Both the position numbers and the translations under genes were made by a program. From assembly GCF_000203915.1 (NCBI RefSeq), contig NC_008392.1, positions 806,001 to 870,000 on the forward strand: 64,000 nt of DNA. The letters are read 5' to 3'. The stretch comes from Burkholderia ambifaria AMMD (GTDB taxonomy: Bacteria; Pseudomonadota; Gammaproteobacteria; Burkholderiales; Burkholderiaceae). Under the pieces are notes generated by a model. It searched no databases, was not told where the DNA came from, and was given only the letters and a program-made list of their open reading frames with translations. Below are positions 5,880 to 28,108 of this stretch, piece after piece (the stretch's first letter is position 1; every line of letters begins with the position of its first letter).

Positions 5880-6343
5880 GGCGAGGCTCCCATTGAATGT
5901 CCGCAGTCGACCACCGGAGATCATCGATCTTTGCATATCGACGTTGCGCGGAATTTGAATTTTTCTGAAGCACGGATTCGCTTGTGCGCAGCGGCCGATG
6001 GTGACAAAAGTTCACTTTGCGCGCTCAGAGCACCGTTTTATGCTGGCCGCACTTCGCACGCAGTGATGTGCAATACAACACCTGATCGAAGCGCATATGG
6101 CAGAGCCACTTCCGATAGACGCGACGGAATTCGCGAACGAAACGCCCGTGGTTTTCGACGTCGGCGCCGGGACGCCGCTGCGCGCGGTGCGGCTGAAATC
6201 GGACGCGCGGACGATTCGGCGCGAACGACATGGCGAACCGCGGTGGCAGCGGCGCATCACGCCGCGCGTGCCGCGTCCAACGAACCTGCGGTGACCCAGG
6301 CGGGGTCGCGGGATTTTCTCCACTGCTACTTGCGGGGATCCAC
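5880..6343. promoter_or_regulatory. Divergent promoter region between acyl-CoA dehydrogenase and PKS genes
   Basis: These 464 bases must hold the promoters for both divergent genes. The part near 5950-6060 is AT-richer than its surroundings. It contains one copy of a recurring 15-bp dyad (6001-6015) and a degenerate second copy about 46 bases away (5955-5969). A 65-codon frame from 6097 was considered but has no recognisable product. Confidence 0.6.
6001..6015. promoter_or_regulatory. 15-bp dyad motif, copy A
   Basis: GTGACAAAAGTTCAC is an inverted repeat (GTGA-N7-TCAC). Read on the other strand it is GTGAACTTTTGTCAC, which differs by one base from the copy at 26733-26747. It lies between the divergent acyl-CoA dehydrogenase and PKS genes. 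The bound regulator is unknown. The spacing (N7) differs from the CRP spacing (N8 between GTGA and TCAC). Confidence 0.5.
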
Positions 6344-9300
6344 ATGCAAGGAACCAGCCTCCCTGTATCGCGCATTGCGATAACGGGTACTGCATATCGT
6401 TTCCCTGGCGATGCCGCTTGCCACGAATCCTACTGGGCGTTGCTCGAATCGGGACGCACTGCGGTCCGCGAGACACCGATGGCCCGCTTCGACATCCAGC
6501 CGTTCTTCAGCGAAGACGCGAGCGTGCCGGGGACCACTTATGTGCGCAATGGCGGCTATGTGGAAGGCGCATTCGAATTTGACGCCGGCTTCTTCCGGAT
6601 CTCCGAATCGGAAGCGCTCGCGATGGATCCGCAACAACGGTGGATGCTCGAGCTCTGCTGGGCGGCACTGGAAAATGCCGGCATCGCGCCCGGCACGGTG
6701 CGCGGGCAAAGCATCGGCGTGTTTCTCGGCAGCGGCGAAGTCGACTACGGCCGCCGCACCGTGTGGGCCGGCGACATGAGCAAGCTGACGACCTACGCGA
6801 GGCTGGGCGCGAGCCGACCGACGCTGGCCGGACGGGTGGCGTATTTCCTCGGCGTGCACGGGCCCGCGGTGTTCGTCGATACGGCCTGTTCCTCCTCGCT
6901 GACCGCCGTTCATCTGGCTGCGCAGAGCTTGCGTGCGGGTGACTGCGATATCGCGATTGCGGGCGGGATCAATCTGATCCTGTCGCCGGAAGAGACGATC
7001 CTGGGCGCTCGCCTGCAGGCCATGTCGCCCAGCGAGATGTGCCGGCCGTTCGACGCCCGCGCCGATGGATATCTGCGCGGCGAGGGCGGCGGCGTGGTCG
7101 TGTTGAAGCGCATCGACGACGCGGTCCGTGACGGTGATCGCATCGACGCGGTACTGGCCGGCTCGGCCATCAATAACGATGGCGCGAGCAACGGTCTCAC
7201 CGCACCCAATGGCGCGGCGCAGGAAAGCGCGATTCGGGTCGCGCTGCGGCGCGCCGGCGTTGGCCCGGCGTCCGTCGCGTACGTCGAGGCTCACGGCACC
7301 GGTACGCAACTGGGCGATCCGATCGAATTGACTGCCTTGCGCAATGCCTATACGGCTGGCGTGGAACGGGCGCGCCCGCTGCTGGTCGGCTCGGTCAAGG
7401 CGCAAATCGGCCATCTCGAAGCGGGCGCGGGTATCGCGGGGTTGATCAAGGCGATGCTGATCCTGAGCCGCCGCCGGGTGCCGGTTCAGGCGAATTTCGA
7501 CGATCCGACGCCGCGCTTTCGCTGGGACGACAGCCAGATTTGCGTGCCGCGCACCGGCGAGGACGCGCTGGACGAGAACGGAATGGTGGGCGTCAACGGG
7601 TTCGGGATCAGCGGCACCAACGTGCACCTGGTGCTGGCCGGCGCGGGCGCGCGCGAAGTCGCGATGGACGAGGAGCGGATCCCGCGCGTTCTGCCGCTTT
7701 CCGCCAGGTCGCCGGAGGCCGTCGTTCGTTTGGCGCACGCATACCGGAAGATGCTCCACACGGCCGGTCCCGCCGCGGGCGACATTTGCTACACGGCAAG
7801 CGTCAGGCGCGATCACTGGCCTCACCGCGCGGCCGTGGTGGGAGACAGCCGGGAACAGCTGCTCGAGTCGCTGGACGATTTCCTGGCCGGCAACGCCGAG
7901 GGCAACTGGCACTCGGCCAGTGTCGCGAAATCGCGTCGGCTGGTTTTCCTGTTCCCGGGCCAGGGCGCATGGAAACCCGGTGTCGGCGCGCAACTGTACG
8001 ACGACAATCCGGTGTTTCATCGCTTCGTCGACGAATGCCTCGCGTATCTGGATCCCGCGCTGGCTGCGGATGTGATGGCCGCAATCCGCGGCCATCATCC
8101 CGAGACGGTTCGCCATCGCCAAGGGCAACTTGCCCACTTCGTCATCCTCCATTCGCTGGCAAGGACATGGATCGAATCGGGCAACCGACCCGATGCCGTG
8201 GTCGGCCATTCGCTCGGCGAGCACGTCGCGGCGACACTGGCCGGTGTGATGACGCTCGAGGACGGCCTGAAGGCGGTCGAGGCGCGCGGCCGGTTGTTCG
8301 ATACCGCCACGCCGCGCGGCGCGATGCTCGCGGTCGCGGCCGGCGTGACGGAGTTGCAGCGCCTGTTCGAGTTCGGGGAAGTGCTGTTCGTTGCCGGCAT
8401 CAATGGTCCGGAGCAGACGGTCGTCAGCGGCACGGCCGCGGCAATCGAGGAAGTGCACGCCACCATGGTCGCGATGGGGCGGCGCGCATCGATGCTCGGC
8501 ACGTACGACACGCCGGGGCATTCGCCGCTGCTGGCGCCGATGCGCCCGGCTTTCGCGCAGGCGTTGTCGGCGCTTCGATTCATGCCGCCGCGCATCACGC
8601 TGATCTCGACACTGACCGGCAAGCCCGCCGGTGCCGAAATAGCGGGCATCGAGCATTGGCTGGACCTGGTCGAGCGGCCGGTGCTGTTTGCCGATGCGCT
8701 GGGCCAGTTCGCCGATCAGGATTGCGTATTCCTGGAGGTGGGGCCCGGTGCCGCGCTGTCGAATCTGGCGCGCGCGGCGACGCAGAAGTGGGAAAGCGTC
8801 GTATCGTCGCTGGCGGACGCGCCGGGCGACGACGCCACGGAATCCATGAACTTCGCCCATGCATGCGCGCACCTGTACTGCCTCGGGTTCATGCGCGACT
8901 GGGCCGCGCTGTATCCGCGCCCGCCGCGGCCGGCTCAGGTGCCCACCTATCCGTTCGAGCGCGTGCATCTGGAATTGCCGATGACGTTACGAGCGGCTGC
9001 ATCGGTCGACACGGAAGTCGAAGGTACGGCGACCGGTCGCGACGCCGGAATATCACACGACGCGTCGAACACCGGACCGACGAGCGTTGAAGCGACATCG
9101 GGCGACCTGTCGCGCGAGCGTGCGCACGTGCTCGACGCGATTCGTCGGATCGCGCGTTCCGTGTCCAGCGGTGCCGCTGCGATCGACGACGACGTACCGC
9201 TCGCGGCCAGCGGCTTCGACTCGCTTGCGCTGACCGAGCTTCGGTCACGCATGCAGCACATGTTCGGACACACGGTTCCGATGGCGGTGCTTGCACGGGG

Positions 9301-10255
9301 CGCTTCGATCTCGAGGCTGGCCGAGCTCATGGCCGCGGCACCGATCGCCAAGGACTCGGCGGCGCGGACTTCACAAACGGTGCCGGCGGACATGCGTGAA
9401 GCGCTGCCGGCGCGGGGCGCTCCCGAAGATCGCGGCATGCGTGCACCACCGGCCGAGGAGCCGCTCATCGTGCTGCGTCACGGCGAGGGCGAGATGGTTG
9501 CGTTGATCCATCCGATCGGAGGCGACGTGCTGTGCTACCAGGCGCTGGCGGACGCGTGGCCCGGAGATCCCACGATCGTCGGCTTGCGGCATCCCGATGT
9601 CGACCGGCCGACGCTGCCGTTCCATCGACCGCTCGCCGAACTCGCCAGCGGGTATCGGGATGTGCTCGAGCGCGAGTTCGGGCGCCTGCCTGATCGCGTC
9701 GGCGGCTGGTCGTTCGGTGGCCTGGTGGCGCTCGAAATGGCGGCGCAGTGGGAGTCGGAGGGGAAGGTGGCGCCGCCGCTGATGCTGGTCGACAGCCCGT
9801 TTCCCACGGGCGACTTCGCGTTGCGATTGAAGGAAATCGTTGGCTCGACGACCGCGTTGCCGTCACTCGCCGACATCGACGCGCTAGCGAAGGATGCGCG
9901 CTTTGTCGCGTTGCTCGATCGCGATCTGGGGCTTCTCGAGATGCGGGCGCGGCTCGATCCCCCTGAGTTTGCGCGTATCTCACGGCTCTATGCGTCGAGC
10001 GTGGTCTCGATCGTCTCGCGAAGTTTCACCGCGCTGCGCGCGCCGATCCACTACGCGTTGGCCGCCAACGGCGGCAACGGCCGATGCCGCGACGATGTGT
10101 GGCCGCATCTCGCCCGCCTGACCACGGGCGCGATCGAGGTGGACGTGTTCGACGACGACCACAACTCGATCGTCGGTGGTGCATCCGTACGGCGGCTTGC
10201 GGCGCGGCTAGGGCGGCGCATCGCCGAAATGCAAGCAGCGGCGAGCGGCGATTGA
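6344..10255 (+). CDS. Single-module type I polyketide synthase (KS-AT-ACP-TE)
   Basis: The protein has 1303 residues. The ketosynthase (about 8-425) has Cys182 in VDTACSSSL and both His motifs (EAHGTGT, KAQIGHLEAG). The acyltransferase (about 530-800) has FPGQGAWKPG and Ser623 in GHSLGEH. The acyl carrier domain has Ser960 in SGFDSLALTEL. The thioesterase (about 1040-1300) has Ser1123 in GGWSFGGL and a late His1273. No ketoreductase, dehydratase or enoylreductase is present, so a beta-keto product would be released or cyclised by the thioesterase. The acyltransferase motif usually read as HAFH (malonyl) or YASH (methylmalonyl) is TPGH here, so the extender unit cannot be predicted. The ATG at 6344 follows a GGGGA site; the longer start at 6230 has no family support. 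The Rieske gene follows 53 bases later, probably in the same operon. Confidence 0.95.
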   Translation: MQGTSLPVSRIAITGTAYRFPGDAACHESYWALLESGRTAVRETPMARFDIQPFFSEDASVPGTTYVRNGGYVEGAFEFDAGFFRISESEALAMDPQQRWMLELCWAALENAGIAPGTVRGQSIGVFLGSGEVDYGRRTVWAGDMSKLTTYARLGASRPTLAGRVAYFLGVHGPAVFVDTACSSSLTAVHLAAQSLRAGDCDIAIAGGINLILSPEETILGARLQAMSPSEMCRPFDARADGYLRGEGGGVVVLKRIDDAVRDGDRIDAVLAGSAINNDGASNGLTAPNGAAQESAIRVALRRAGVGPASVAYVEAHGTGTQLGDPIELTALRNAYTAGVERARPLLVGSVKAQIGHLEAGAGIAGLIKAMLILSRRRVPVQANFDDPTPRFRWDDSQICVPRTGEDALDENGMVGVNGFGISGTNVHLVLAGAGAREVAMDEERIPRVLPLSARSPEAVVRLAHAYRKMLHTAGPAAGDICYTASVRRDHWPHRAAVVGDSREQLLESLDDFLAGNAEGNWHSASVAKSRRLVFLFPGQGAWKPGVGAQLYDDNPVFHRFVDECLAYLDPALAADVMAAIRGHHPETVRHRQGQLAHFVILHSLARTWIESGNRPDAVVGHSLGEHVAATLAGVMTLEDGLKAVEARGRLFDTATPRGAMLAVAAGVTELQRLFEFGEVLFVAGINGPEQTVVSGTAAAIEEVHATMVAMGRRASMLGTYDTPGHSPLLAPMRPAFAQALSALRFMPPRITLISTLTGKPAGAEIAGIEHWLDLVERPVLFADALGQFADQDCVFLEVGPGAALSNLARAATQKWESVVSSLADAPGDDATESMNFAHACAHLYCLGFMRDWAALYPRPPRPAQVPTYPFERVHLELPMTLRAAASVDTEVEGTATGRDAGISHDASNTGPTSVEATSGDLSRERAHVLDAIRRIARSVSSGAAAIDDDVPLAASGFDSLALTELRSRMQHMFGHTVPMAVLARGASISRLAELMAAAPIAKDSAARTSQTVPADMREALPARGAPEDRGMRAPPAEEPLIVLRHGEGEMVALIHPIGGDVLCYQALADAWPGDPTIVGLRHPDVDRPTLPFHRPLAELASGYRDVLEREFGRLPDRVGGWSFGGLVALEMAAQWESEGKVAPPLMLVDSPFPTGDFALRLKEIVGSTTALPSLADIDALAKDARFVALLDRDLGLLEMRARLDPPEFARISRLYASSVVSIVSRSFTALRAPIHYALAANGGNGRCRDDVWPHLARLTTGAIEVDVFDDDHNSIVGGASVRRLAARLGRRIAEMQAAASGD

Positions 10256-10308
10256 CGGTGTTTTCCGAGTGCTGCCCGTGGGCGGACTACCGATGCGAGG
10301 AATGAATC

Positions 10309-11487
10309 ATGCAGCATGAAACCCAGGTGACGCTTGCTAAACGCATCTTCGCGTTGATCGATTCCGGCGGCACGGACATGAGCGACGCGTGCGCGAGCAA
10401 TCCTGTATCCGCATACAGCTGTCCGGCAATCCTGAAGCAGGAGCGACAGCGCTTGTTCACCGGCCGACCGGTGCTGATCGCGACGAGCTGCCAGCTCAAG
10501 GCGCCCGGCGATTATCTGACCGACGATCGATGCGGCGTGCCGATCCTGCTCGTGCGCAATCGCGACGGGAAGCTCAACGCGTTCGCCAACGTCTGCCGTC
10601 ACCGTGGCGCGCGGCTCGCGAATGGCTGCGGCCGCGACACGACATCGTTCGTTTGCCCGTATCACGGCTGGGGCTACAACCTGGAAGGGAAATTGCGCAT
10701 CCTGTCGCCGCGCGGCGCGTTCCCCGGCCTCGACTGCGAGCATACCGACCTCGTTCGTTTTCCCGTCGCGGAGCGGCATGGGCTCATTTGGGTGTTGCCG
10801 CAGGCCGGCGGCACCATCAACGAAGATGCGCTGCTGCCGGGGCTGGACAGCGAGCTGGCTTCATACGGTCTCGCCAACTTCACGCACTTCGGGACGCGAG
10901 CGCTGCGCAAACGGCTCAACTGGAAGCTGGCCATCGATACGTTTCTCGAAAGCTGGCATATCGACAAGCTGCATCGGGAAACCATCAATCCGATCTTCCT
11001 GCCGGGCATCGGCCTCGTCGATACATTCGGCGACAACATGCGCCTCACGTTTCCGCGCCGCTCGATCGTCGACATGCGCAATCAGCCGGAGGAGAACTGG
11101 GATCTGCTGCGCCATACGCTCATCGTCTACGTATTGTTTCCGAATACGCTGTTGAACTGGCAGGGCCGACACTTCGAGATCTGGCGCATGTTTCCCGCCA
11201 ACGACGAGGATCCCGATCAGTGCATCGCCGAGGCTTCGCTTTACACGCCCACACCCGTCGGCAATGCCCAGACCGACGCGTACTGGCGGCGCAATTTCGA
11301 TCTGCTGATGAACGTCGTGGAGAAGGAAGACTTCGATCTCGCGGAACAGATTCAGCGCGGTTTCAACGCACGCACGCAACAGAGCATCACGTTCGGGCGG
11401 CATGAACCGGCGTTGGGCTATTACCACGAGCGGCTGCGACGGGCAGTCGCGGCGGATCGGGAGGAGAAGGAGGAGGCCGCGGCCTAG
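10309..11487 (+). CDS. Rieske [2Fe-2S] ring-hydroxylating-type oxygenase, alpha subunit
   Basis: This 392-residue protein has a Rieske motif near residues 95-120: a CRH pair, then a CPYH pair (C-x-H ... C-x2-H). The mononuclear iron site appears in DTFLESWHIDKLHRET, which holds the two His ligands. The rest is a StAR-like catalytic domain of normal length for the alpha subunit of aromatic-ring or Rieske oxygenases. No beta subunit or reductase gene is next to it, so electrons would come from elsewhere. A GAGGAA site precedes the ATG. Directly behind the PKS gene, it is probably a tailoring oxygenase acting on the polyketide or acyl chain (inference). Its stop overlaps by four bases the stop of the convergent EAL gene. 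Confidence 0.92.
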   Translation: MQHETQVTLAKRIFALIDSGGTDMSDACASNPVSAYSCPAILKQERQRLFTGRPVLIATSCQLKAPGDYLTDDRCGVPILLVRNRDGKLNAFANVCRHRGARLANGCGRDTTSFVCPYHGWGYNLEGKLRILSPRGAFPGLDCEHTDLVRFPVAERHGLIWVLPQAGGTINEDALLPGLDSELASYGLANFTHFGTRALRKRLNWKLAIDTFLESWHIDKLHRETINPIFLPGIGLVDTFGDNMRLTFPRRSIVDMRNQPEENWDLLRHTLIVYVLFPNTLLNWQGRHFEIWRMFPANDEDPDQCIAEASLYTPTPVGNAQTDAYWRRNFDLLMNVVEKEDFDLAEQIQRGFNARTQQSITFGRHEPALGYYHERLRRAVAADREEKEEAAA

Positions 11488-12284
11488 GTGACGACGGCGC
11501 GGTAGTGGTCGGCGATGAAGGCCGCGATGGTGGTGCCGCACATCGGCTCGCCGAGATAGAAGCCCTGACCTTCGACGCCCGGCAAGGTGCGCGCCCATTC
11601 GAACTGTTGCGCGGTCTCGATACCCGTCATCACGATCTGCTTGCCATGGCTCGTTGCAAGATGCACCAGGGTTTCGACCACACGCGTGGATTCTGCATTC
11701 TGCGGGACGTCACGGATCAGCGATCGATCGAACTTGACGATGTCCACCGGCAATTGCTGGAGCAAGGTCAGCGAGTTGAAACCTGCGCCAAAGTCGTCGA
11801 GGGCGACGCGCACGCCGACTGCCTGCACCGCATGAATCGTTTCCACCAGCCAATCGAGCTCCGCGGGCGGAACGACGTCGGTCAGTTCGATTTCGAAGCG
11901 GTTCGGAGGGAGATCGAGCGACTCGAGCAGCGCGGCGAGCTGAGCCGGAAATTCCGGATGCCCCAATTCGAGCGCGGACAGGTTGATGGAGAGCGACAAG
12001 CCCGGATAACCGTCCACCGTCCACTGCGCGAGCGTGCGAGCCGCGTGATGGGTAAGGAGATCGGTGAACCGGCCGGCGAGGAACGAATCCTCGACGACGC
12101 TGATGAACGAGTTCGGTTCGAGGACGCCGCGCTGCGGATGTTGCCAGCGCATCAGATATTCGAACCCGGACAGGCGGAATTCCTGCAGGGCGAACCTGGG
12201 CTGCAGCAGGAAAAAGAATTCGCCCTGGTGAAGCCCCCGTTCGGCGTCGTTGAGTGGGTGGTTTGTCAAGGAGGTGAGGTTCAT
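11484..12284 (-). CDS. EAL-domain protein (cyclic-di-GMP phosphodiesterase family)
   Basis: The protein has 266 residues, essentially a stand-alone EAL domain with no sensor or GGDEF part. Many active-site positions are present: the Glu of the signature (here EYL instead of EAL), Asn in SINLS, Glu in IELTD, the DDFGAG loop, Lys and Asp in KFDRS, and Glu in GIET. The signature Ala is replaced by Tyr and the second acidic residue of ELTE by Asp, so activity is plausible but not certain. EAL proteins hydrolyse cyclic di-GMP to pGpG. It lies inside the biosynthetic locus and is convergent with the Rieske gene. Its upstream side is an AT-rich intergenic region that it shares with the histidine kinase gene. 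Confidence 0.9.
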   Translation of the reverse strand: MNLTSLTNHPLNDAERGLHQGEFFFLLQPRFALQEFRLSGFEYLMRWQHPQRGVLEPNSFISVVEDSFLAGRFTDLLTHHAARTLAQWTVDGYPGLSLSINLSALELGHPEFPAQLAALLESLDLPPNRFEIELTDVVPPAELDWLVETIHAVQAVGVRVALDDFGAGFNSLTLLQQLPVDIVKFDRSLIRDVPQNAESTRVVETLVHLATSHGKQIVMTGIETAQQFEWARTLPGVEGQGFYLGEPMCGTTIAAFIADHYRAVVT

Positions 12285-12845
12285 GAATATTCCAGCAAGC
12301 CGAATCAGGATGTCTGCTTCTTTGGGATGGCTAGATTCTATGGAGCGAGTCTTGAATTTTCAACTTCCAAAAATAAACAAATGTAAATTATTTTAACTGA
12401 CTGGAAGTTGAGGGATTGATTTGTCATTGTGGGTCTTATTTTCAGAGGGGCATTGATTTTGAGATTGATTTATATTGCATTTCGACGTTATTGCGGAGTG
12501 GCATGCGTCGCTAATGCCGGGTTCCTGTGGGGCGTGATGGCGGCGGATCGGTATGTTCCGGGAATGCAGTGCCGCAGGGCATGGAGGGCTGAATGTAAAA
12601 ATGAAAATATGGGTAATTTATTGGAATAAAATATGCAATTCCAATTGAATAAAATTTATTGTATAATTTGATCAATATGCGCGCGTATTTTTCATCAATG
12701 CTCCTATGGATGTTGGTCGATCACCATAGTGATGGTCGTATGTGTGCAATGATTTATTGAGATAATTTAATACTAATAAAAACGATTTTCGGGGGAGTTC
12801 TCGGGATTTTGTGTGGTCATTTCGAGTGTCGTTTAGTGAGTTTTT
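12285..12845. promoter_or_regulatory. AT-rich divergent regulatory region
   Basis: This 561-base stretch is clearly AT-richer than the rest of the window, with many A/T runs at 12340-12400 and 12590-12830. It separates the EAL gene from the divergent CHASE2 kinase gene. It includes an inverted repeat ATCAC-CATA-GTGAT (12720-12733). A copy of the 15-bp dyad family begins at 12836. No convincing gene was found; a 66-codon GTG frame at 12429-12629 has no recognisable product. AT-rich promoter islands in GC-rich genomes are typical targets of H-NS-like silencers (inference). Confidence 0.6.
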
Positions 12846-12850
12846 GTGAA
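12836..12850. promoter_or_regulatory. 15-bp dyad motif, copy C (degenerate)
   Basis: GTGAGTTTTTGTGAA matches the recurring motif GTGAACTTTTGTCAC at 12 of 15 positions. It overlaps the possible GTG start (12846) of the CHASE2 kinase gene, which favours the later ATG at 12867 as the true start if the site is an operator. Confidence 0.35.
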
Positions 12851-15080
12851 ACATCATCGAATTGACATGGTTGGAAGAATTTTTGCATCGAGATGGCGTC
12901 GCTCGCGTGTCGAGCGCGATCGGTTGGTGCAGGCCCCCCGCTTCGATCTCGCAGGAGAATGGGTGTGCATGACGTTCGTGCTCATGCTTATGTGTCTGGC
13001 GTTGACGACGACCCACCTGCTGCATCGCGTCGACCGTGCCTTTTTCGAGCTTGCGGCACAAGCTGCCGATGGCGGCGCGGGCAAACCACTGGCAGTGATC
13101 GTCGTCGACGACCGTACGATCGAGCATCTGGGTGGTTGGCCATTCAGTCGCGAAACCCGCGAGCGGATGATGGACCGGCTCGTCGGCAGCGGCGTCGCCG
13201 CGATCGGCATCGACCTGACGAGCTTGCGTGACGCAAGCCACGCCCGTGCTGCCGACAAGGCTACCGACAAGGCAGCCGCCGAGACGACTGGCCGAGACAA
13301 CGGGCGAACGGCTTCCGCGGCCCCCGCGGCCGGCACGCAGGGCCGCAGGAGTGCCTGTGCCGGCGCCGCCTCGCTTCAATGCGATCCGCCCTATGAACTC
13401 TATTCGTATATCAATGTGCTGGACGGCCGCGTGCCGTCCGACAGCCTGAGTGGCCGACCCGTCCTGATTCGAGCATCGATCGACGGGGCGGCCGCGTGGC
13501 CGGCCGCATCGCCGGACAGCGGGTTGCCGCTGGCGAGTGTCGACATGGCAGGAAGTGCGAACGAAGCACGGCTCAAGACTTCGGTCCCGCGCGAAATCGA
13601 TTTCGCAATCGAACTGCTGTTCAACGAGTGGGTCGTGTGCATGGCCTGCGCATTGCTCTATCGGCTGACGCCGCGCGCCGGCATGGTTGCCACCTTCGCC
13701 CTGACGCTCGCGATCGCCGCAGGCGCGTTCGCGCTGTTTCGGTTTGGCGACCGCATTCTGCCGCCCACCACGGGCATGCTCATCTGCGTGCTCGCCTGTG
13801 TGCTGTGGTCGTGGCGACGCCTGGAAGCGCTGTTGCGCTTCATCGTTCGGCTCGCGGATCGACTGACGACCGAGCCTTCGCTGCACGCGGAGCCCGCCGT
13901 CGTGCCGCATTGCATGGACCCGGTCTGGCGAGAACTGAGCAGGGCGGGTGCGCTGGACGCGCAGGTGCGAAGGTATCGCGCGCTGATCGACGCGTGGGTC
14001 GACAGCCTGCCGGAAGCGACACTGATCGCGTCGGCATCGGGCGTCGTTCTGTTGGCGAACGAGCGGGTGGCGGCGTTGTGCGGGGAGCTCGACGGGAATC
14101 CGGGGGCGCGCCATTCGCCGGCCGGGCGCTCGGTCTCCGATGTGCTGTTTCAGATCACGGCGTCACACCGGGCCAATGAATTCGCCGCACAGGCGCTGAC
14201 ATGGCTCAATCACTCGCCGCACGGCGACGATCTGTCGGCGCAGACGAAATCGCAGCTCGATCAGGGCGTCGAGATCGCCAATGCACGCGGCGGCCTCTCG
14301 TTGCTGATCAAGTGCGCGCCGATCCGGCCGTCCGCGTTCGGCGAGCGTGCGCTGGTCTTCCATGTGGCCGACGTGTCGTCCGTACGGCTCGCCGAGCGGC
14401 AGCGCGACATGGTCCTGCGTTTCCTGTCGCACGACATGCGGTCTCCGCAGGCGTCGATTCTCGCGCTCGCTTCGCAGATAAAGCGCGATCCGTCGCGGTA
14501 CACGCCGCAGCGGTTCGCAGAACTGATTTCGCAGTATGCGACGCGGGCGCTCAACCTGTCCGATGATTTTCTGTTTCTCGCCAAGGCCGAAAGCCTGCCG
14601 CCGAAGCTCGCCGCGGTGGATCCTGCGCTGGTGCTGGGCGATGCGGTCGACGATCTGCTGCCGCAGGCGAGTGCGAAATCCACGATCGTCAACCTGATGG
14701 CGGAGCCGGGGCTGAGCACGATCGCCGACGTGCAGCTGCTGCGGCGGGCGTTCGTCAATCTGATCGGCAATGCGATCAAGTTTGGCCGCGAAGCCTCCAC
14801 CGTCGACGTGGAGCTGTCGGCCACGGAACGGCATGTGAAGATCGCCGTGACCGATTACGGGGCGGGCATATCCGAGCGAGACCAGGAAAAGCTGTTCCGG
14901 GAATTCACGCAGCTGGACGGGACCTCGCCATTGTCCGGGCATGGCCTCGGCCTGGCCTTCGTCAAGACGGTCGTGGATTCACTCGGCGGCAAGCTGCAGG
15001 TGCGATCGAGGCTCGGAGAAGGGACGACCTTCTTGATGTTCCTGTCGCGGCATGATCACGACGCGGCGCTGGGAAGCTGA
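12846..15080 (+). CDS. CHASE2-domain membrane sensor histidine kinase
   Basis: The protein has 744 residues from the GTG, or 737 from the ATG at 12867; neither start has a strong ribosome site. A membrane segment (about 40-60) is followed by a short extracytoplasmic CHASE2 domain with the hallmark VDDRTIEHLGGWPFSR. Three hydrophobic segments (about 262-330) come next, then a PAS-like region (about 370-470). The HisKA domain has the phospho-acceptor His529 in FLSHDMRSPQ. The ATPase domain has the N box VNLIGNAIKFG, then DYGAGIS and GHGLGLAF. The CHASE2 part is shorter than usual and contains a low-complexity Ala/Thr stretch near 130-165. No response regulator is adjacent. The orphan OmpR-type regulator at 27219-27956 is a candidate partner (inference). 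Confidence 0.9.
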   Translation: MKHHRIDMVGRIFASRWRRSRVERDRLVQAPRFDLAGEWVCMTFVLMLMCLALTTTHLLHRVDRAFFELAAQAADGGAGKPLAVIVVDDRTIEHLGGWPFSRETRERMMDRLVGSGVAAIGIDLTSLRDASHARAADKATDKAAAETTGRDNGRTASAAPAAGTQGRRSACAGAASLQCDPPYELYSYINVLDGRVPSDSLSGRPVLIRASIDGAAAWPAASPDSGLPLASVDMAGSANEARLKTSVPREIDFAIELLFNEWVVCMACALLYRLTPRAGMVATFALTLAIAAGAFALFRFGDRILPPTTGMLICVLACVLWSWRRLEALLRFIVRLADRLTTEPSLHAEPAVVPHCMDPVWRELSRAGALDAQVRRYRALIDAWVDSLPEATLIASASGVVLLANERVAALCGELDGNPGARHSPAGRSVSDVLFQITASHRANEFAAQALTWLNHSPHGDDLSAQTKSQLDQGVEIANARGGLSLLIKCAPIRPSAFGERALVFHVADVSSVRLAERQRDMVLRFLSHDMRSPQASILALASQIKRDPSRYTPQRFAELISQYATRALNLSDDFLFLAKAESLPPKLAAVDPALVLGDAVDDLLPQASAKSTIVNLMAEPGLSTIADVQLLRRAFVNLIGNAIKFGREASTVDVELSATERHVKIAVTDYGAGISERDQEKLFREFTQLDGTSPLSGHGLGLAFVKTVVDSLGGKLQVRSRLGEGTTFLMFLSRHDHDAALGS

Positions 15081-15171: not shown

Positions 15172-16467
15172 CTACGTCGATCGGCTCGTGACGGCCCGGA
15201 TGATTTCGGCGCGCGTATCGATTGCTGCAAACTCGCGGGCCTTGCGAGCGGCCTCGATCCGGTAGCCTGGATTGGCGAGTACCGTCCGGATCGCGTTGCG
15301 CAACGCATCAGGCGTGGGATGTCCGGTTGCAAGATCGATACCGACTCCGGACCACGCGACTCGCGCGTTCACGTCGGCCTTGTCTTCGCTCAGTCCGGCG
15401 GTCACGAGCGGAACACCGAAGGTCAATGCCTGGTTGACGCTCCCGTTGCCGCCATTCGTGACAAATACGTCGACCTTGGGCAACAACCATTCATACGGCA
15501 GAAAACTGGCCACGCGTGCGTTCGGAGGCATGGTCCCCGGAATGGTGTCGAGCGGCCGGCCGCCGGTGATCGCGACAACCAGAACGCCGGGATCGTCGCC
15601 AAGGGCGGCCAACGTGGGTGCGAGCAGCATGCCGAAGTCCTTGTTCGCGACGGTGCCTTGTGTGACGTGTACGACCTTTTTTCGGCCGTCCAGGTCCGCG
15701 GCCCACGCAGGCAATGGATGCAGGTTCGGCGTAATGGGCAAGCCCCCGATGAATCGCACGGACGCAGGCAGCGACGCGCGCGGAAATTCGAAGCTCGGCA
15801 CGGACGGTTGCAAATAGGCGTCCGCGAGTTCAATGGCGGACTCGAAAACGCCTCGATGCAACGGGCGGGCGCCCAGGTCCTTCATGAGTTCATCGGCGCG
15901 TGCGATTAGCGGCTGCTCGAACAACCTGTCATGGTCGCGCGAAAGGCCGGCGTACTGCGCACGCTGTGCCTGCGTGGACGCGGGTCGCCACCCGCCAAGA
16001 TACGGCGCACCGTCATCCCGTTCCCAGGTCAGAAAATACGTACCGCAGATGACCACCCGGGGGCGCCTTTCGCGGGCGCCCAACAGGAGCGGCAGAATGC
16101 CGAGGAACCCGCTTTCGGTGAGGATGACGTCGGCGGCGAAGTGGCGTAGCACTGCCTGCAGCATCACATGCTGAAGCGGGATAGGATCGACCAGCGCGCG
16201 TTCGACGGCGATCTGAAAACGCATCAATTGCGGTGCATCCTCGGGCAGGTTCCTGAGCGTCGGATCATGGGCAATGACATGGGCAACGTCTGGCGACGCA
16301 TCGGCCGGAAGAGGATGGAACAACGCGCCGATATCCTCGAACTGCCGGCGAAACTGCTCACCGGTCAGCGCTGCGACTTGATTGCCTTCCGATATCAAGA
16401 TGGATGCGGCAGACGCCACTGGATTGACATGACCCGCTTCGGACTTGGCGGCAATGAGAATCTTCAA
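15172..16467 (-). CDS. MGT-family (GT1-type) glycosyltransferase, copy 1
   Basis: This 431-residue GT-B fold enzyme of the UDP-glycosyltransferase/MGT family has an N-terminal acceptor domain beginning KILIAAKSEAGHVNP. Its C-terminal nucleotide-sugar domain has VTQGTVANKDF and FVTNGGNGSVNQALTFGVP. The classical HGG of the donor signature is NGG, as in several bacterial MGT proteins. A TTG start at 16467 is chosen because it aligns exactly with the ATG of the paralogue at 18094 and follows a GGGAC sequence; a TTG at 16482 is the alternative. It is divergent from the acyltransferase-glycosyltransferase-acyltransferase operon. It probably adds a sugar to the product of the locus (inference). Confidence 0.9.
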   Translation of the reverse strand: MKILIAAKSEAGHVNPVASAASILISEGNQVAALTGEQFRRQFEDIGALFHPLPADASPDVAHVIAHDPTLRNLPEDAPQLMRFQIAVERALVDPIPLQHVMLQAVLRHFAADVILTESGFLGILPLLLGARERRPRVVICGTYFLTWERDDGAPYLGGWRPASTQAQRAQYAGLSRDHDRLFEQPLIARADELMKDLGARPLHRGVFESAIELADAYLQPSVPSFEFPRASLPASVRFIGGLPITPNLHPLPAWAADLDGRKKVVHVTQGTVANKDFGMLLAPTLAALGDDPGVLVVAITGGRPLDTIPGTMPPNARVASFLPYEWLLPKVDVFVTNGGNGSVNQALTFGVPLVTAGLSEDKADVNARVAWSGVGIDLATGHPTPDALRNAIRTVLANPGYRIEAARKAREFAAIDTRAEIIRAVTSRST

Positions 16468-16804
16468 CTGGTGTTGTCCCAATATGTGCTGCTTATCGCA
16501 CTGTTTTTCTTGTCAGGGAAAAGTGCTGTTTCACCATTGTCTGAGGCTGAATGGTGTTCGCCGAGGCATGATGGCACGCTATTCGGTCCCGGCTTATGAA
16601 CTTTTGTGAACAGACGTGTTTGAAAGCCGGACACGCGATCAGGAAAGCGGACTCCGACACGAATCACGAAGTGACAATTGTTCGCATTCCAGCGCGCTGA
16701 TCGGGGATACGCTGTCTCCAAGGTTTCAGTCAATGGCTTCGTTTGCCGCGCCGTCAACAGGTGGGCGACCTGCCGACGTACGGTGCTCGACGGATACATT
16801 CTCC
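16468..16804. promoter_or_regulatory. Divergent promoter region of the glycosyltransferase/acyltransferase cassette
   Basis: These 337 bases lie between the divergent glycosyltransferase 1 and acyltransferase 1 genes. They contain copy B of the recurring dyad at 16596-16610. A longer in-frame extension of acyltransferase 1 back to 16616 exists, but it has no similarity to the paralogue and is not taken as coding. Confidence 0.55.
16596..16610. promoter_or_regulatory. 15-bp dyad motif, copy B
   Basis: ATGAACTTTTGTGAA matches GTGAACTTTTGTCAC at 12 of 15 positions, with the core TGAACTTTTGT fully kept. It lies in the divergent promoter region of the cassette, as copy A does in that of the PKS. 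Confidence 0.45.
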
Positions 16805-20718: not shown

Positions 20719-20742
20719 GCGCCCCGCCGAGCGGGGCCCGCG

Positions 20743-21658: not shown

Positions 21659-22453
21659 TCAGTTGCGGCCGCTTACGCTGATCGACACCCGGCGATCGGG
21701 CTGCAGGCATGCGATCACGGCGCGGCTTTGACCCGCCGGGCAATGCGTGACCGGCTGACTCGATCCCACGCCTTCCGCTTCGATGATGCTGCCGTTCAGG
21801 CCGTGCGAGATCAGATAACCGCGCACGGTTTGCGCACGCGCTCGCGACAACGGCTCGTTCACCGTGCTCGGGCCGATACGATCCGTGTGCCCGACGACGA
21901 CGATGCGCGTGATTTCCTTATGCCGCTTGATCCGCTCGATGGCGTCGTCGAGCTGCGCCTTGCCGGCCGGCAGCATCGAATCAAGGCTCGATTTTCCGAA
22001 TGCGAACAGCGCGTCGCTCTGAAGCGTGAATTGCTCGAGCGTCGACACCGGCGGCTCGGCCGCGGCCACCGGCGCGGCCGACGGCGCGCGTACGAAGTCG
22101 GCGCATGCGGGTTCGCGCCAGTAGGTATCGGTGACCTTCATGTGCTGGTCGTAGCGCACCTGATACTGGCAGCTGACGACCTCGTTGCCGCGACGGAAGT
22201 CGAACAGATAGTTCCACACATGGCTGCCGACGAACCATTCGTTGAAATGCGGCGGCCCGAGCAGGTCGTACATCTGATCCTTGTTCAGCCCTGGCGCGAC
22301 GTTACGAAGATTGTCCACGTTCACGAACGTGCCGCCCTTCGGGCTGGCCGACTGCGGATCCGGGAATTTGGGCGGACCGCTGACGGCGCAGCCTTCGAGG
22401 GTTGCAACGGAAAGCAGGCTGATAGACAGCGCAAGTGCCCATTGGATTTTCAT
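21659..22453 (-). CDS. Lipoprotein with BamE/SmpA-like and OmpA C-terminal domains
   Basis: This 264-residue protein has a lipoprotein signal peptide; the lipidated residue would be Cys22 (TLEGC). Residues about 45-90 (NVAPGLNKDQMYDLLGPPHF, then WNYLFDFR) match the SmpA/OmlA fold of BamE, a part of the outer-membrane assembly machine. Residues about 140-262 form an OmpA-like peptidoglycan-binding domain with VVVGHTDRIG and SRARAQTVRGYL. The gene starts 110 bases after the trimeric adhesin gene on the same strand, so the two are probably co-transcribed. It may help insert or anchor the adhesin (inference). Confidence 0.9.
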   Translation of the reverse strand: MKIQWALALSISLLSVATLEGCAVSGPPKFPDPQSASPKGGTFVNVDNLRNVAPGLNKDQMYDLLGPPHFNEWFVGSHVWNYLFDFRRGNEVVSCQYQVRYDQHMKVTDTYWREPACADFVRAPSAAPVAAAEPPVSTLEQFTLQSDALFAFGKSSLDSMLPAGKAQLDDAIERIKRHKEITRIVVVGHTDRIGPSTVNEPLSRARAQTVRGYLISHGLNGSIIEAEGVGSSQPVTHCPAGQSRAVIACLQPDRRVSISVSGRN

Positions 22454-22563
22454 GATCTGTTTCTCTCATCGTATTGGGAGCAGCGCATCCGACAGCCGTG
22501 CAACGCGCGATGGAGGCGTTGCACGGCCGCGGACGAGCCCGGTTGGATATCGGGTCCTCGCGA

Positions 22564-25500
22564 TCACCACTGATAGCCCGCACCGATCACGGCACCGTAG
22601 TCGTTGCGCGTGTTGGTCGTGATGGCGGCCTTGTAGATCCAGTGGTTGTTTTCCGAGATCGTGGAGATGCCGATGGCCTGCCCGGACTGGCTTCGATAGA
22701 CGCTGCCGGCGATGGCGACCATGCTCTTGCCCGGCCCGGAAGGCTGGGGCAGCCCCGCGACGGCCATGGCGCTCGCGGCTCCCGCATCCGCGTCGCGCCG
22801 CAGCCCTTGAATCTTCGCGTCGGTGTACGCGTTCGCGTTGCCGACCGCGGCATTCAACTGCTGGACGTTGACGCCATCGGTGGGCGCGGTGCCCGCCGCG
22901 ACGTTCGTGAGCTGCCGCGGCGAGTTGGCCGTACCGATCGACACGACGTTGTTTCGTCCGCCGTCGTTGCTGCCCGCACCGATCGCCACCGAGCTGTTGC
23001 CCGACGACGTCGAGCCTGCGCCGATCGTGGTCGAGCCGGTGCCCGACGCGGTCGAGCCGTTGCCGACCGCGGTACTGTTCGAACCGGACGCGACCGCGCC
23101 GTTGCCGCCGGCCGACGAATTCGAGCCGGTCGACGCGGGGGGCGTCGACGAGCCCGGCGTCGACGGGAAACCGCCGCCGCCGTTGGTATTGCTGATGTTC
23201 TGGATCAGCGTCGTCAGGTTCTGGTTGACGGCATCGAGCTGGCTGACGTTGACCGCATCGGTGCCAGCCGATCCGGCGGCGACACCGGTGATCTTGCGGT
23301 TACCGATGTTGACCTCGCCGGCCGACGACTGCGGGCTGCTCAGGCCGTACGCAATGTAGTTCGACTGCGCGCCGACCGTCGTGACCGATCCGGCGCCGAT
23401 CGCGATGCTGTTCGCGACGTTCGCACTGGCGCCGGAACCGAGCGCGATCGCATCGGCGGCGCTGCTGTTCGCGCCGGAGCCGATCGCGATGCCGCCCGAA
23501 GAACTCGCGACGGCGTTGGCGCCTTGCGCGATCGACTGAGGCCCGGTCGCATTCGCGCCGCTGCCGAGTGCGATCGCATCGGCCTGCCCCGAATTCGCCG
23601 CCTGACCGATCGCTACGCCGCCAGGCGCGGTCTGCTGGACGATCGCACCATTGCCGATCCCCACGCCGTTGTCGCCGTTGACGACCGTCGTCGGCCCCAC
23701 GGCGATCGACTCCGCGCCCACGGCGAGCGAATCGGCCGCGGTTGAATTGGCATGGAAGTACATCGTCGGCGAGACGGCGAACGATTGCAGCGCGCCGGTC
23801 AACTGCCGGACCGTCACTGCGTCGTGCGCGTTCGTGCCGTCGGCGACGTTGATGAGCTGCCGGTAGGTGTTCCCCGTTGCACTGCCGAACGACACCGCGC
23901 CGAGCAGCGTCGCGTCGGACGTGTTGAACGGCACCGTGTGGCTGCCGGCCGGGATGGTACCGCTGCCCGCCGCGATCGCGCGGTCCGACACGGCGCCCGA
24001 GCCGATCGCTACACTGCCGACGATCGAAGCGGTCGTCTGCGCGCCGAGCGCCATGCCGCTTGCGGCGGTCGATTGCGCGCCGCTGCCGGCTGCGAAGCTG
24101 TCAGCCGCGCTGGCGACTGCCTGAGGGCCGACGGCAATGCTGTCCGTGCCCGTTGCCTGGCTGTCGGCCAGCGTCGAGTTTGCATGGAAGTATTTGATCC
24201 CCGCGCCGTTGCTGATGTTCGAGATCGCCGTCGTGTTGGCGGTCACTTGCTGGTTGGTCGCGAACAACTGCGAGCCGTTCACGGCGTCCGTGCTGGCGCC
24301 GCTCAGCTGGCCGGCGGCGACGTTCTGGATCTGCCGCTCGGCGCCCGGCGCGCCGACGCTCACCACGCCGACGGGTGCTGCACCCGCGAAGTTGTAGGTC
24401 ACGCCGCCGATCACCGCGCTGGATGTCGGTGTCGCCGCGGTCGTCGTCGAGCCTGCACCGAGGGCGACGCTGTTGGCAACGCTGGCAATCGCGCCCGAGC
24501 CGAGCGCGACGGCCGATACGCCGGACGCGGTGGCTACGTTACCGATGGCGATCGAACTCGTTGCGCTCGCCGTCGCCTGGCTGCCGAATGCCTGCGCACC
24601 GGTGTTGCTGGCGAGTGCGTTGAAGCCGATGGAAACCGCCTGGTCGCCCGTCGCCTGGGTGCCGGAACCGGGGACGCCGGCCGTGCCGCCCGGGCCGAGC
24701 GCAATTGCGTTGACGCCCGACACACCGCTGTTGACGCCGATCGCGATGCCGGACGCGCCGCTGGCCGATGCGCCCGATCCCAATGCGAGACCGGCGGCGG
24801 CGGTGTTGGTGGTGATCGCATCGAAACCCATCGCGATTGAATAGCCGCCGGCTGCCGTCGACATTGTCGCCAATGCGGTCGAATGGTCACCCGATGCGGT
24901 GCTGCCGGCGCCGAGCGCCGTCGCGGAATTGTTCGAGGCTATCGATGAATTGCCTAAGGAAATCGATGAAATGCCGCTGGCGGCTGCGTTCAAGCCGCCG
25001 GCTAAAGTGTTGTCGGCGCTCGCTCGGGCACCCGCGCCCAACGCGGTGCTGCCGACGCCGGACGCCGTCGAGAAATCGCCCAATGCGCTGGCGTTTTCGC
25101 CGGTCGCGGCTGCCGACGCACCGAGCGAGGAAGCATTGGTGCCGGTCGCCAGTGCCTGATGTCCAATCGCGCTCGCACCAATGCCGCTCGCCGTGGTGTT
25201 GCCGCCGATGGCGGTCGAACTGCTGTTGGATGCCGTCGCGGCCTGGCCGAAGGCGCTCGCGCCGGTGCTGGCCGCGACGGCGCTGGTGCCGACCGCTGTC
25301 GTGGCGGTGTCGGTGGCAGAGGCCAAGCGACCCACCGCGACGGCATCGGCGCCGGTGGACTGTGCGTTGGGGCCGACCGCCGTCGACATAAGGCCCGACG
25401 CAAAAGCAGCGGGACCGATTGCGGCGCTGGTCTGCCCGGATGCAGTCGTGTTCACGCCTATCGCCAGCGCATTGCCGCCCGCAGCCACCGCGTTTGCGCC

Positions 25501-25917
25501 CATCGAGATTGCGCCGGCAGCGGACGAATGGGCATTCGTGCCCAGCGCCATCGCGTTCAGTCCCGACGTCACCGCACCGCCCCCGATGGCGACGCCCAGC
25601 CCACCGCTTGCGGTGGCGGCCGCTCCACCGGCGCCCGAGATCGCGACATCCCCGGTCCCCGTGGCGCTACCGTTACCTGCGGCATACTGGGCGTGTGCGA
25701 TCTGACCGGCGGCACCGAGGCAAACGGGAATCGCAAAGCCGAGAAGAATTCGAATTTTCTGTTGCTGTCCGGCCGCGGCATGTTGTTCCGTACGTCGGTC
25801 GTCGCATACGGCACCCGACGTACCGGCGCTTCCCTTGCCGCGCGCCTTGCCAAGCTCCGATGCGGCGACGAACGCCCCGCGCGCCTTGCTCCATATGACC
25901 TTGTGCACTCTGTTCAT
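22564..25917 (-). CDS. Trimeric autotransporter adhesin (YadA-like)
   Basis: This 1117-residue protein has all the parts of a type Vc adhesin. An extended signal peptide region (MNRVHKVIWSKARGAFVAAS) and a hydrophobic signal ending near AHAQYAAG come first. A long head follows, made of repeats of about 14 residues of the form A-x-G-x-x-A/S-x-A-x-G. Neck-type motifs (GTDAVNVSQLDAVN, TDGVNVQQLNAAVG) come next, then a short stalk and a C-terminal YadA anchor of about 70 residues ending in GAVIGAGYQW. The last residue is Trp rather than the more common Phe. Such proteins trimerise in the outer membrane and bind host or abiotic surfaces. The repeats at about 22980-25640 are a likely site of length variation by recombination. 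Confidence 0.97.
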   Translation of the reverse strand: MNRVHKVIWSKARGAFVAASELGKARGKGSAGTSGAVCDDRRTEQHAAAGQQQKIRILLGFAIPVCLGAAGQIAHAQYAAGNGSATGTGDVAISGAGGAAATASGGLGVAIGGGAVTSGLNAMALGTNAHSSAAGAISMGANAVAAGGNALAIGVNTTASGQTSAAIGPAAFASGLMSTAVGPNAQSTGADAVAVGRLASATDTATTAVGTSAVAASTGASAFGQAATASNSSSTAIGGNTTASGIGASAIGHQALATGTNASSLGASAAATGENASALGDFSTASGVGSTALGAGARASADNTLAGGLNAAASGISSISLGNSSIASNNSATALGAGSTASGDHSTALATMSTAAGGYSIAMGFDAITTNTAAAGLALGSGASASGASGIAIGVNSGVSGVNAIALGPGGTAGVPGSGTQATGDQAVSIGFNALASNTGAQAFGSQATASATSSIAIGNVATASGVSAVALGSGAIASVANSVALGAGSTTTAATPTSSAVIGGVTYNFAGAAPVGVVSVGAPGAERQIQNVAAGQLSGASTDAVNGSQLFATNQQVTANTTAISNISNGAGIKYFHANSTLADSQATGTDSIAVGPQAVASAADSFAAGSGAQSTAASGMALGAQTTASIVGSVAIGSGAVSDRAIAAGSGTIPAGSHTVPFNTSDATLLGAVSFGSATGNTYRQLINVADGTNAHDAVTVRQLTGALQSFAVSPTMYFHANSTAADSLAVGAESIAVGPTTVVNGDNGVGIGNGAIVQQTAPGGVAIGQAANSGQADAIALGSGANATGPQSIAQGANAVASSSGGIAIGSGANSSAADAIALGSGASANVANSIAIGAGSVTTVGAQSNYIAYGLSSPQSSAGEVNIGNRKITGVAAGSAGTDAVNVSQLDAVNQNLTTLIQNISNTNGGGGFPSTPGSSTPPASTGSNSSAGGNGAVASGSNSTAVGNGSTASGTGSTTIGAGSTSSGNSSVAIGAGSNDGGRNNVVSIGTANSPRQLTNVAAGTAPTDGVNVQQLNAAVGNANAYTDAKIQGLRRDADAGAASAMAVAGLPQPSGPGKSMVAIAGSVYRSQSGQAIGISTISENNHWIYKAAITTNTRNDYGAVIGAGYQW
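22980..25640 (-). repeat. Internal head-repeat region of the adhesin gene
   Basis: Imperfect tandem repeats of about 42 bases encode the YadA-type head motif (alternating Gly, Ala, Ser and Thr). The unit is not exact, but the periodicity is plain in the protein. Confidence 0.7.
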
Positions 25918-25996
25918 CTTGATGCTCCGTATGAAATGAAAACTCTCTCTCAGAGTAAATTTCGTAGTAGTGCGAAGTTGAGTTGATAAATAAAAA

Positions 25997-26404: not shown

Positions 26405-27218
26405 CTCTTAATCTCGATATAGATACGTCACGATTGGCGATATATCGCCGTTACTTTATTAAATGCACGATGCGCTATATGAATCTTTTTTTTGACTGAT
26501 CCAAATTGGAAAAACCACTCAATGTCGCGATGCGATAAGCATGGCTACGTCCCGAGATGATCGAGTCGACTCTCGGCGGCGCGGGCCATGTGACGTGTTC
26601 GTGAAACGTTCTGTCGGTGGTGTTTCTTTGTTATCGCATCGATGGTTTCGTGCTGTATCGAAAATATAAAAATGGTTAATTTAATGAGCCTTGTGATGGC
26701 TAGATGTTAGGAGAGTATCGGGGAATTAAAAAGTGAACATTTGTCACCTGTGGCGTAAGTTTTAAAACTGTGACGACACGGTGATTTTCATCGGCTCGTA
26801 CACGATTGATGAATGCAATCTTGCGCGGAAATAACGCGTGGAAAAGAATGCGGTCGAGTGGTCGACGAGCCCGGATCAATTGCTGATCGTTCGACAACGA
26901 AGGAATCCGAAGAAACCGTGGGAGGAATGCGAGCCGAAGCAGGATGGAGGAATGCCGGACGTATCGATCGACGGGGGAGGGGTCGCTGCCCGACACCGGC
27001 GGCGGCAGGCAGCGTGAACTATGTGGAGCACGACGTCATTCGTATCCGGCAGCGGGTTGCCGGATTTGTCGCTGCAGGATCGTACGCGCGATGCGGCTTG
27101 GGTCAACCGATTCGCTTGCCGGCGAGATGCGGGCGTCGAGCCGTTCGCTCGACCAGAATCGTCGGCGCGCAGGCGACGCGTGTTGCCTGCGACGCCACCA
27201 CCGGCATCCAACTGAAAC
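26405..27218. other. Gene-poor AT-rich stretch with copy D of the dyad motif
   Basis: About 800 bases without a convincing gene. The part from 26405 to 26760 is markedly AT-rich. A short frame at 26700-26996 (minus) and a longer one from 26813 (plus) have no recognisable product or ribosome site. Confidence 0.5.
26733..26747. promoter_or_regulatory. 15-bp dyad motif, copy D
   Basis: GTGAACATTTGTCAC is an inverted repeat (GTGA-N7-TCAC) differing by one base from copy A (GTGAACTTTTGTCAC). It lies in the AT-rich stretch between the response regulator and the adhesin region. Confidence 0.5.
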
Positions 27219-27956
27219 TCACACGCGACTTTCCATCATCACCTCCGGGCTGCAATGCAGCTCGGGTGTCGCCTTGGTCTGATCCAGTCGATAGCCCAAC
27301 GTATAAATCGCGGACAGGCGCAAGCCATTCTCGATGCCGAGCTTCAGCTTTTGCCGGATTCGGTAGATGTGGGTATCGAGCGAACGCGATTCCGTTCCCA
27401 GTTCTCGTCCCCAGGCCGTCGTGGCGAGCTGCTCGCGAGACATGATCTTGCCGATGTTGTTGAACAGGCACGCAACGAGCTGAAATTCCTTCGTCGTCAA
27501 TTCGATCGTGTTGCCGCGCAGCTTCACGGCCCGATGCACGGGGTCGAGCAGATACTCGCCGGCCCGAATCGGCTCGTCCCGCTTCACGTTGCGTGCGACG
27601 CGGCGCAGCAACGCATTGACCCGTGCAGCCAGTTCTTCCGCACGGAACGGTTTGCTCAGGTAGTCGTCGGCGCCGGCTTCCAGCGCTCTGACGACATCGA
27701 GCTCCTGTACGCGGCTGGTCAGGAACAGCACGCCGTATTCGACGTCGGCGCGCGTGCGGATCCAGTTCAGCACTTCGATGCCGGTCAGGCACGGCAAGTG
27801 CCAGTCGAGGACGACCGCGTCGACCGACTCGGAGCGCAGGTAACGCAGCGCCTGCTCTCCATCGACGACGACCTTGATCGTGTGACAGAACGGAGCGAGT
27901 GCGTTCTGCACTTCCTCCGCCTGAACGGGATCGTCCTCCACAACCAAAATGCGCAT
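27219..27956 (-). CDS. OmpR/PhoB-family response regulator
   Basis: The protein has 245 residues. The receiver domain (about 1-120) carries the acidic pair in VVEDDP, phospho-acceptor Asp51 in VVLDWHLP, Thr in FLTSR and Lys in DYLSKPF. The C-terminal winged-helix domain (about 135-230) has LTTKEFQLVACLF and SLDTHIYRIRQKL. The ATG at 27956 has GGGGGC upstream and starts directly with MRILVVEDD. No histidine kinase is adjacent, so it is an orphan. The CHASE2 kinase at 12846-15080 is the nearest candidate partner (inference). Copies of the 15-bp dyad lie upstream (28094-28108) and downstream of the gene, so it might bind that motif and regulate itself (inference). Confidence 0.93.
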   Translation of the reverse strand: MRILVVEDDPVQAEEVQNALAPFCHTIKVVVDGEQALRYLRSESVDAVVLDWHLPCLTGIEVLNWIRTRADVEYGVLFLTSRVQELDVVRALEAGADDYLSKPFRAEELAARVNALLRRVARNVKRDEPIRAGEYLLDPVHRAVKLRGNTIELTTKEFQLVACLFNNIGKIMSREQLATTAWGRELGTESRSLDTHIYRIRQKLKLGIENGLRLSAIYTLGYRLDQTKATPELHCSPEVMMESRV

Positions 27957-28093
27957 TCGTGCCCCCGAATATCGTGGTTGGCCTTCTCGATTTACATGGC
28001 AAAACATGGCTTTACGAGCACGCAAACGTTTGCCTTTTGATGCGTGCGGAACAACCGGTTAGGGAATATAAATCATGGCCAATGAACGCGATT

Positions 28094-28108
28094 GTGACAT
28101 TTTGTGAA
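28094..28108. promoter_or_regulatory. 15-bp dyad motif, copy E (degenerate)
   Basis: GTGACATTTTGTGAA matches GTGAACTTTTGTCAC at 11 of 15 positions. It lies 138 bases upstream of the response regulator start, in an AT-rich promoter region. Confidence 0.35.

Follow-up and report, generated by a model that had tools for sequence, protein, structure and literature searches.

Response regulators of the OmpR/PhoB family bind tandem direct-repeat operators, as exemplified by the CpxR box (GTAAA-N5-GTAAA), OmpR, PhoB and PmrA, and the geometry of class II activation is established for these regulators. Operators of the CRP/FNR type are inverted repeats such as TGTGA-N6-TCACA.

Two Burkholderia systems are the closest described relatives of the locus analysed here. 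In B. cenocepacia, the trimeric autotransporter adhesin (TAA) cluster BCAM0218-BCAM0228 includes kinases and regulators proposed to control the adhesins, according to the passages on that cluster in PMC3404963. In B. contaminans, the section of PMC5192318 on the BiofilmReg operon describes a CHASE2 kinase and a CreB-like regulator, and the regulator was needed for biofilm.

We analysed a 64,000-nucleotide stretch of Burkholderia ambifaria AMMD (the window; C4:806001-870000 of a 7.53 Mb genome in four contigs) and also scanned the 30 kb upstream for repeat copies. By gene content, the locus resembles the TAA cluster as those passages present it, in that a trimeric adhesin, a lipoprotein, a histidine kinase and a response regulator share one locus; the same passages give no polyketide genes or operator for the TAA cluster. 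As in the described part of BiofilmReg, a CHASE2 histidine kinase occurs with a winged-helix response regulator (CreB-like in BiofilmReg). That operon, as described, lies on chromosome 1 with a LysM/FecR gene between regulator and kinase, whereas the window genes lie on the third large contig. We rejected the BiofilmReg operon as the identity of this locus: kinase and regulator are about 12 kb apart, and no LysM/FecR domains were found among the locus genes scanned. A second kinase, about 33% identical, is present in most genomes and may be the BiofilmReg kinase. The afc/ShvR cluster was also dropped, its gene content being different.

Like OmpR/PhoB-family systems, the one predicted here combines a receiver and a winged helix with a direct repeat of about one helical turn and a site beside the −35 position. 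Unlike its relatives, it has the half-site TGAAC. NCBIfam scores of the regulator for PhoB, CreB, CpxR, OmpR and others were far below the cut-offs, and a CpxR regulon was rejected on the word (TGAAC-N5-TGAAC) and the CpxR model (120.3 bits against a cut-off of 341). We found no description of this operator in open-licence PMC papers, searches with spellings of the core word included. The system is ordinary in mechanism; the regulon is new and the operator of a known kind. For a family of two-component regulators, the analysis yields an operator, a rule for its spacing and a list of targets. It opens to direct testing the earlier idea that trimeric autotransporter adhesins are driven by regulators of this sort, and it links an uncharacterised polyketide cluster with the switch of the adhesin.

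Results

Eleven copies of the repeat lie in one 44-kb locus

An initial annotation of the window had reported a 15-bp dyad in five intergenic copies plus a weaker sixth. All six words were present where it had placed them. We located sites with a matrix built from its five main words and accepted six further sites (−15908, −2397, −2446, −1183, 5955 and 16671), giving 11 copies in one 44-kb locus, which runs from −15908, before the first base of the window, to 28108 (window coordinates). The original list was therefore correct as far as it went but incomplete, lacking the copies at 16671 within the window and at −1183, −2397, −2446 and −15908 upstream. Two matches were left out despite outscoring some accepted sites: 43083, which at 15.4 on the five-site matrix scores higher than three accepted sites inside the locus, and −2456 (15.1), which overlaps an accepted copy. 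Because all eleven sites of the window genome then served to train a later matrix, the scores they receive from it are not independent. The annotation had noticed no copies after 28.2 kb, and this held: the eleven-site matrix at a score of 16 gave 0 sites between 34 and 64 kb (0 reversed), with 43083 as one weak match.

The annotation had named a background-rate spread of the motif across the genome as a refuting result; in our counts, strict matches were confined to the locus and loose matching gave background levels. With up to three mismatches, GTGAACTTTTGTCAC matched four times in the window (expectation 0.67; a count of four was reached in 2/100 shuffles) and 45 times in the whole genome against 51 for the reversed control, which is background. 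With up to two mismatches it matched four times in the genome, three of them at the adhesin-polyketide locus and one of these upstream of the window. The consensus TGAACTTTTGTGAA, at up to two mismatches, had nine matches in 7.53 Mb (control 5), and 7/9 fell within C4:790093-834108 (44 kb).

The claim that the copies lie outside genes was also borne out (11/11 by the gene calls used), with the caveat that a GTG start would extend the longest ORF (16616-18094) over site 16671; the same frame also offers an ATG at 16805. Intergenic sites numbered 11/11 in the window genome, 38/39 in other Burkholderia and 42/43 in Paraburkholderia, where intergenic DNA makes up 14.5, 20.8 and 22.4%, respectively. 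Gene calls came from our own codon-usage script, which missed, for example, ORF 16616-18094 and the G061 regulator on L033.

The sites face adhesin, regulator and polyketide genes

Upstream of the window, the locus begins with MaoC- and CMD-like genes, followed by SDR, crotonyl-CoA carboxylase/reductase-like, PKS, ACP and KASIII genes (assigned by position and G004 counterparts), and then by PEP-utilising enzymes, a DUF7064/7065 gene and an ACP. Within the window it also holds a KASIII-like gene, a POR-type oxidoreductase, a Rieske oxygenase, an NYN-domain gene, and several glycosyltransferases and PapA-type acyltransferases.

Sites A2 (5955..5969, plus) and A (6001..6015, minus) point in opposite directions. 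Site A2 faces an acyl-CoA oxidase-like gene (4131..5924, minus; start probably later) and has a poor −10-like AAAGAT at 5927-5932. Site A faces the second PKS gene (KS-AT-ACP-TE; 6230..10255, plus; start could be later), and a −10-like TATGCT (6039..6044, plus) lies 23 bp past it. Site B (12836..12850, plus) points toward an EAL-domain, c-di-GMP phosphodiesterase-like gene (11484..12284, minus) 551 bp away; its target is uncertain. Site C (16596..16610, plus) faces glycosyltransferase 1 (15172..16482, minus), with a −10-like CATCAT at 16568-16573. Site C2 (16671..16685, minus) faces a PapA/condensation-type acyltransferase (16805..18094, plus; ORF 16616-18094, start inferred), and a −10-like TACGCT (16708..16713, plus) lies 22 bp past it.

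Site D (26733..26747, plus) points toward a YadA-type trimeric autotransporter adhesin gene (22564..25917, minus) 815 bp away, and a −10-like hexamer (26704..26709, minus), TAACAT or TAATAT in the four loci and TAACAT here, lies 23 bp past it. The adhesin was assigned with NCBIfam autotransporter models, and its G004 orthologue carries the YadA head, stalk and anchor; no Pfam families at 0.001 were found in the antisense neighbours of the window adhesin. The adjacent TpgA-like OmpA/BamE lipoprotein (21659..22453, minus) scored 134.9 of 350 bits, below the TpgA cut-off. Site E (28094..28108, plus) faces the OmpR/PhoB-type response regulator gene (27219..27956, minus), with a −10-like TATATT (28065..28070, minus) 23 bp past it.

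The core of the locus is kept in G004, G039 and G064, in whose loci tblastn detected no homologues of the Rieske, oxidase, glycosyltransferase or PapA genes. Conservation at orthologous positions, which the annotation had proposed as a check, was found for some sites: site E upstream of the regulator gene, site D upstream of the adhesin gene (weaker in G039) and −15908 were each kept in 4/4 Burkholderia loci compared, whereas no counterpart of site B was detected before the kinase genes of G004, G039 and G064. The −10 hexamers at sites E and D were also kept across the aligned loci. An A-like copy lies downstream of KASIII in G004 and G039 and was not found in the G064 locus. G027 and G228 have two sites between the PKS operon and an operon of opposite orientation that holds the oxidase, and G248 has two sites ahead of its PKS operon.

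The repeat is direct and has a fixed polarity

We assembled 93 sites of score at least 16 from 31 source stretches and reduced them to 42 non-redundant sites. The architecture and profile sets exclude stretches L013, L014, L015, L019, L023, L026, L027, L028, L029, L031, L032, L035, L036, L037, L039-L042 and L045, most of which lack a site of at least 16; the one in L042, scoring 17.4, falls within a gene. L045 comes from B. arboris; this record carries no gene annotation in the region and was not counted as independent, because its site sequence almost equals that of G004.

We observed a TGAAC-N5-TGAAC direct repeat with a 10-bp pitch (consensus WTNTGAACWTTTGTGAAC). Half-site identity was 0.65 at this pitch and 0.15-0.30 at pitches of 7-9 and 11-15, and the best inverted arrangement (15 bp) reached 0.48. 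Composition of columns ten bases apart correlated at 0.65-1.0 for 9/10 columns and −0.38 for the tenth. Half-sites shuffled among sites gave a direct identity of 0.634 (sd 0.017), close to the 0.65 observed, and the repeat therefore resides in column composition, with no extra within-site matching. The dyad of the initial annotation gives way to a direct repeat on these values and on the one-sided −10 spacing described below. A CRP/FNR-type dyad operator was rejected on the same two grounds, symmetry and spacing. The direct layout is that of OmpR/PhoB operators, and TTGAACTTTTGTGAAC, with TGAAC halves at 10-bp pitch, is the putative regulator target.

Two further arrangements were seen. Three tandem TGAA words at 10-bp pitch occur at −2456 to −2432 (L002:7544-7568) and look like a three-molecule regulator site. 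Matches to GTGAACTTTTCCCAA at L046:10423 and L042:423 lie within long genes, where a coding repeat mimics the site.

A TAnnnT hexamer lay 21-23 bp from the site, on the side reading GTTCAC, at 8/11 sites of the window genome (3/11 lacked it), 10/20 of other Burkholderia and 12/26 of Paraburkholderia. On the opposite side it occurred at 0/57 sites. Flanking sequence had played no part in site selection. Pooled, 18/42 sites carried the hexamer (flank rate 0.017, P about 2e-21), a P value that is optimistic because the 21-23 bp distance was picked after seeing the spacing profile. Sites pointed at a gene in the sense direction in 11/11 cases in the window genome, 30/38 in other Burkholderia and 39/42 in Paraburkholderia. 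Given the −10 spacing, the site ends at the −35 position and is centred at about −42.

Read from the sequence, this geometry is that of a class II activator: fixed orientation, fixed −10 spacing and no evident −35 consensus are together typical of class II activation. The regulator could instead repress from these sites, or both activate and repress, since sign is unreadable from sequence and a repressor could also act at a site abutting the −35 position. We consider this unlikely, as the fixed orientation and spacing to the −10, in aligned promoters without an evident −35 consensus, speak against it and for putative activation.

The sites follow the response regulator across Burkholderia genomes

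The regulator scored above cut-off for PF00072 and PF00486, a receiver followed by a Trans_reg_C winged helix. Across 16 regulator homologues, receiver residues D8, D51 and K102 were invariant and T80 nearly so; the recognition-helix region SRSLDTHIYRIRQKL was nearly invariant. No other conserved core gene scanned encodes a DNA-binding domain; the regulator gene of B. arboris has a LysR-type gene as its neighbour. A protein listed for Burkholderia sp. PvR073 shares 99% identity with the window regulator.

Exact GTGAACWTTTGTSAM occurred 6 times in 65 Burkholderia genomes, always at the regulator's locus and confined to the five genomes with a regulator at least 70% identical. With one mismatch it occurred 38 times in 28/65 genomes, a level that is largely background because the reversed control already gave 11. 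Exact GTSAACNTTTRTGAAC occurred 6 times (control 0), each no more than about 200 bp upstream of a gene for a regulator homologue; these homologues are 44-48% identical and lie at other loci. At a score of 16, the eleven-site matrix gave 12 sites against 0 reversed at the core loci, 3 against 0 in G027, 5 against 0 in G054, G019, G060 and G023, 5 against 0 in G048 and G018, and 11 against 0 around other homologues.

A site of score at least 14 lay within 350 bp upstream of 11/29 Burkholderia regulator homologue genes, a set that includes the window's own gene, whose site was in the training set. On the same 29 genes, 500 permuted matrices gave a mean of 0.7 and at most 7. Such a site was absent from 18/29 genes, or 17 allowing for G027, where the locus border cuts the upstream region.

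The sites follow the regulator across genomes, and the OmpR-type regulator at 27219-27956 is therefore their probable binder. Control of the locus by a single regulator, as suggested earlier, is well supported, with this regulator as the best candidate. An alternative is that the sites are bound by a regulator from another part of the chromosome, with the response regulator as just one of its targets. Binding by the response regulator is a prediction, and a second conserved element in its leader, GCAAACGTTTGC, would point to other regulators acting there. A global regulator, however, would have sites elsewhere, yet 7/9 close matches are at the locus, and matches track the regulator gene across genomes, unlinked places included. 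We regard this alternative as improbable, somewhat more so than repression, and retain the response regulator as the probable binder.

The sites recur with the regulator in Paraburkholderia

Among 144 Paraburkholderia genomes, 13 had a regulator at E 1e-80 or better. Scanned with a matrix whose training sites all came from the window genome, their 13 loci (326 kb) contained 43 sites against 1 reversed. A site lay directly ahead of the regulator in 9/13 loci, ahead of the CHASE2 kinase in 8/13 and ahead of the adhesin in 5/13; locus L058 had no sites. Across all 144 genomes there were 17 copies of TGAACWWTTGTGAAC (control 1), 14 of them in the 13 regulator genomes; the word was present in 9/13 genomes with the regulator against 3/131 without (Fisher P 2.6e-9). 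Among these three exceptions, G328 and G366 have regulator homologues of 52-56%, and G309 has an exact match and no regulator homologue at E 1e-45. Remote copies lie ahead of autotransporter genes in G305 (same contig, 157 kb away) and G318 (another contig), and in a PKS/MaoC/enoyl-CoA-hydratase cluster of G318 (another contig); other remote copies had no clear target.

Chance matching in AT-richer intergenic DNA can be dismissed as vanishingly improbable: the loose counts would allow it (45 at three mismatches, no more than the reversed pattern's 51, and GTGAACWTTTGTSAM at one mismatch in 28/65 genomes, 38 against 11), but the reversed-matrix and column-permuted controls, conservation at orthologous positions and one-sided −10 spacing speak against it, and the repeat is a real, conserved and polar operator.

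The CHASE2 kinase is the putative partner of the regulator

The annotation had called the regulator an orphan. We rejected this label, as CHASE2-kinase homologues adjoin regulator homologues in relatives: the two are neighbours in G027, G054, G019, G060 and G023 and in 11/13 Paraburkholderia loci listed, and in several relatives' loci a site lies between them. From this arrangement we infer that the CHASE2 kinase of the window (12867..15080, plus), about 12 kb from the regulator, is its partner.

Taken jointly, the sites are very probably operators of the CHASE2-phosphorylated regulator 27219-27956, acting by class II activation on a regulon that is mainly its own locus. In the proposed circuit, the kinase would phosphorylate the regulator, and two regulator molecules would bind head to tail on TGAAC-N5-TGAAC. 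Bound in a single, fixed orientation next to the −35 position (centre about −42), the pair would bring in RNA polymerase. The predicted regulon comprises the regulator's own gene, the adhesin and lipoprotein, two PKS modules with their acyl-CoA and glycosyltransferase/acyltransferase genes, and perhaps the EAL gene.

A broader and tentative reading, which we hold somewhat less probable than not, is of a portable wiring system, made up of regulator, kinase and operator, that joins autotransporter adhesins to polyketide/glycolipid synthesis in Burkholderia and Paraburkholderia. New modules would join by acquiring a TGAAC-N5-TGAAC cassette, and the polyketide would be a surface or biofilm-related lipid. 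If so, the recruits would be the second PKS, the glycosyltransferase/PapA genes and classical autotransporters on other contigs, and the polyketide would be made alongside the adhesin rather than as a free antibiotic.

Other elements near the regulator and adhesin genes

The regulator leader contains the perfect palindrome GCAAACGTTTGC at 28022-28033, and regulator leaders at 12 loci, spread over two genera, carry it. Each of the 65 genomes has 1-9 copies (control 0-2) and the window genome 7, a count on which we rejected it as a regulon-specific element. The palindrome, which we take to resemble a PurR/LacI-type operator, is a possible second regulatory input to the regulator gene.

A UvrA-like ORF (28340-34330; 1996 aa, about double length, with two UvrA interaction-domain matches) stays beside the locus; in G004, other genes separate it from the regulator.

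The presumed leader of the adhesin gene is roughly 780 bases long. Rfam searches over 25900-28440 gave no family above threshold, and a malK-III match (22 of 50 bits, under the gathering score) was taken as chance. We observed a conserved hairpin at 26400-26480 in this leader, with paired changes (GGCGATATATCGCC or GGCGGCCTGCCGCC) across four Burkholderia loci.
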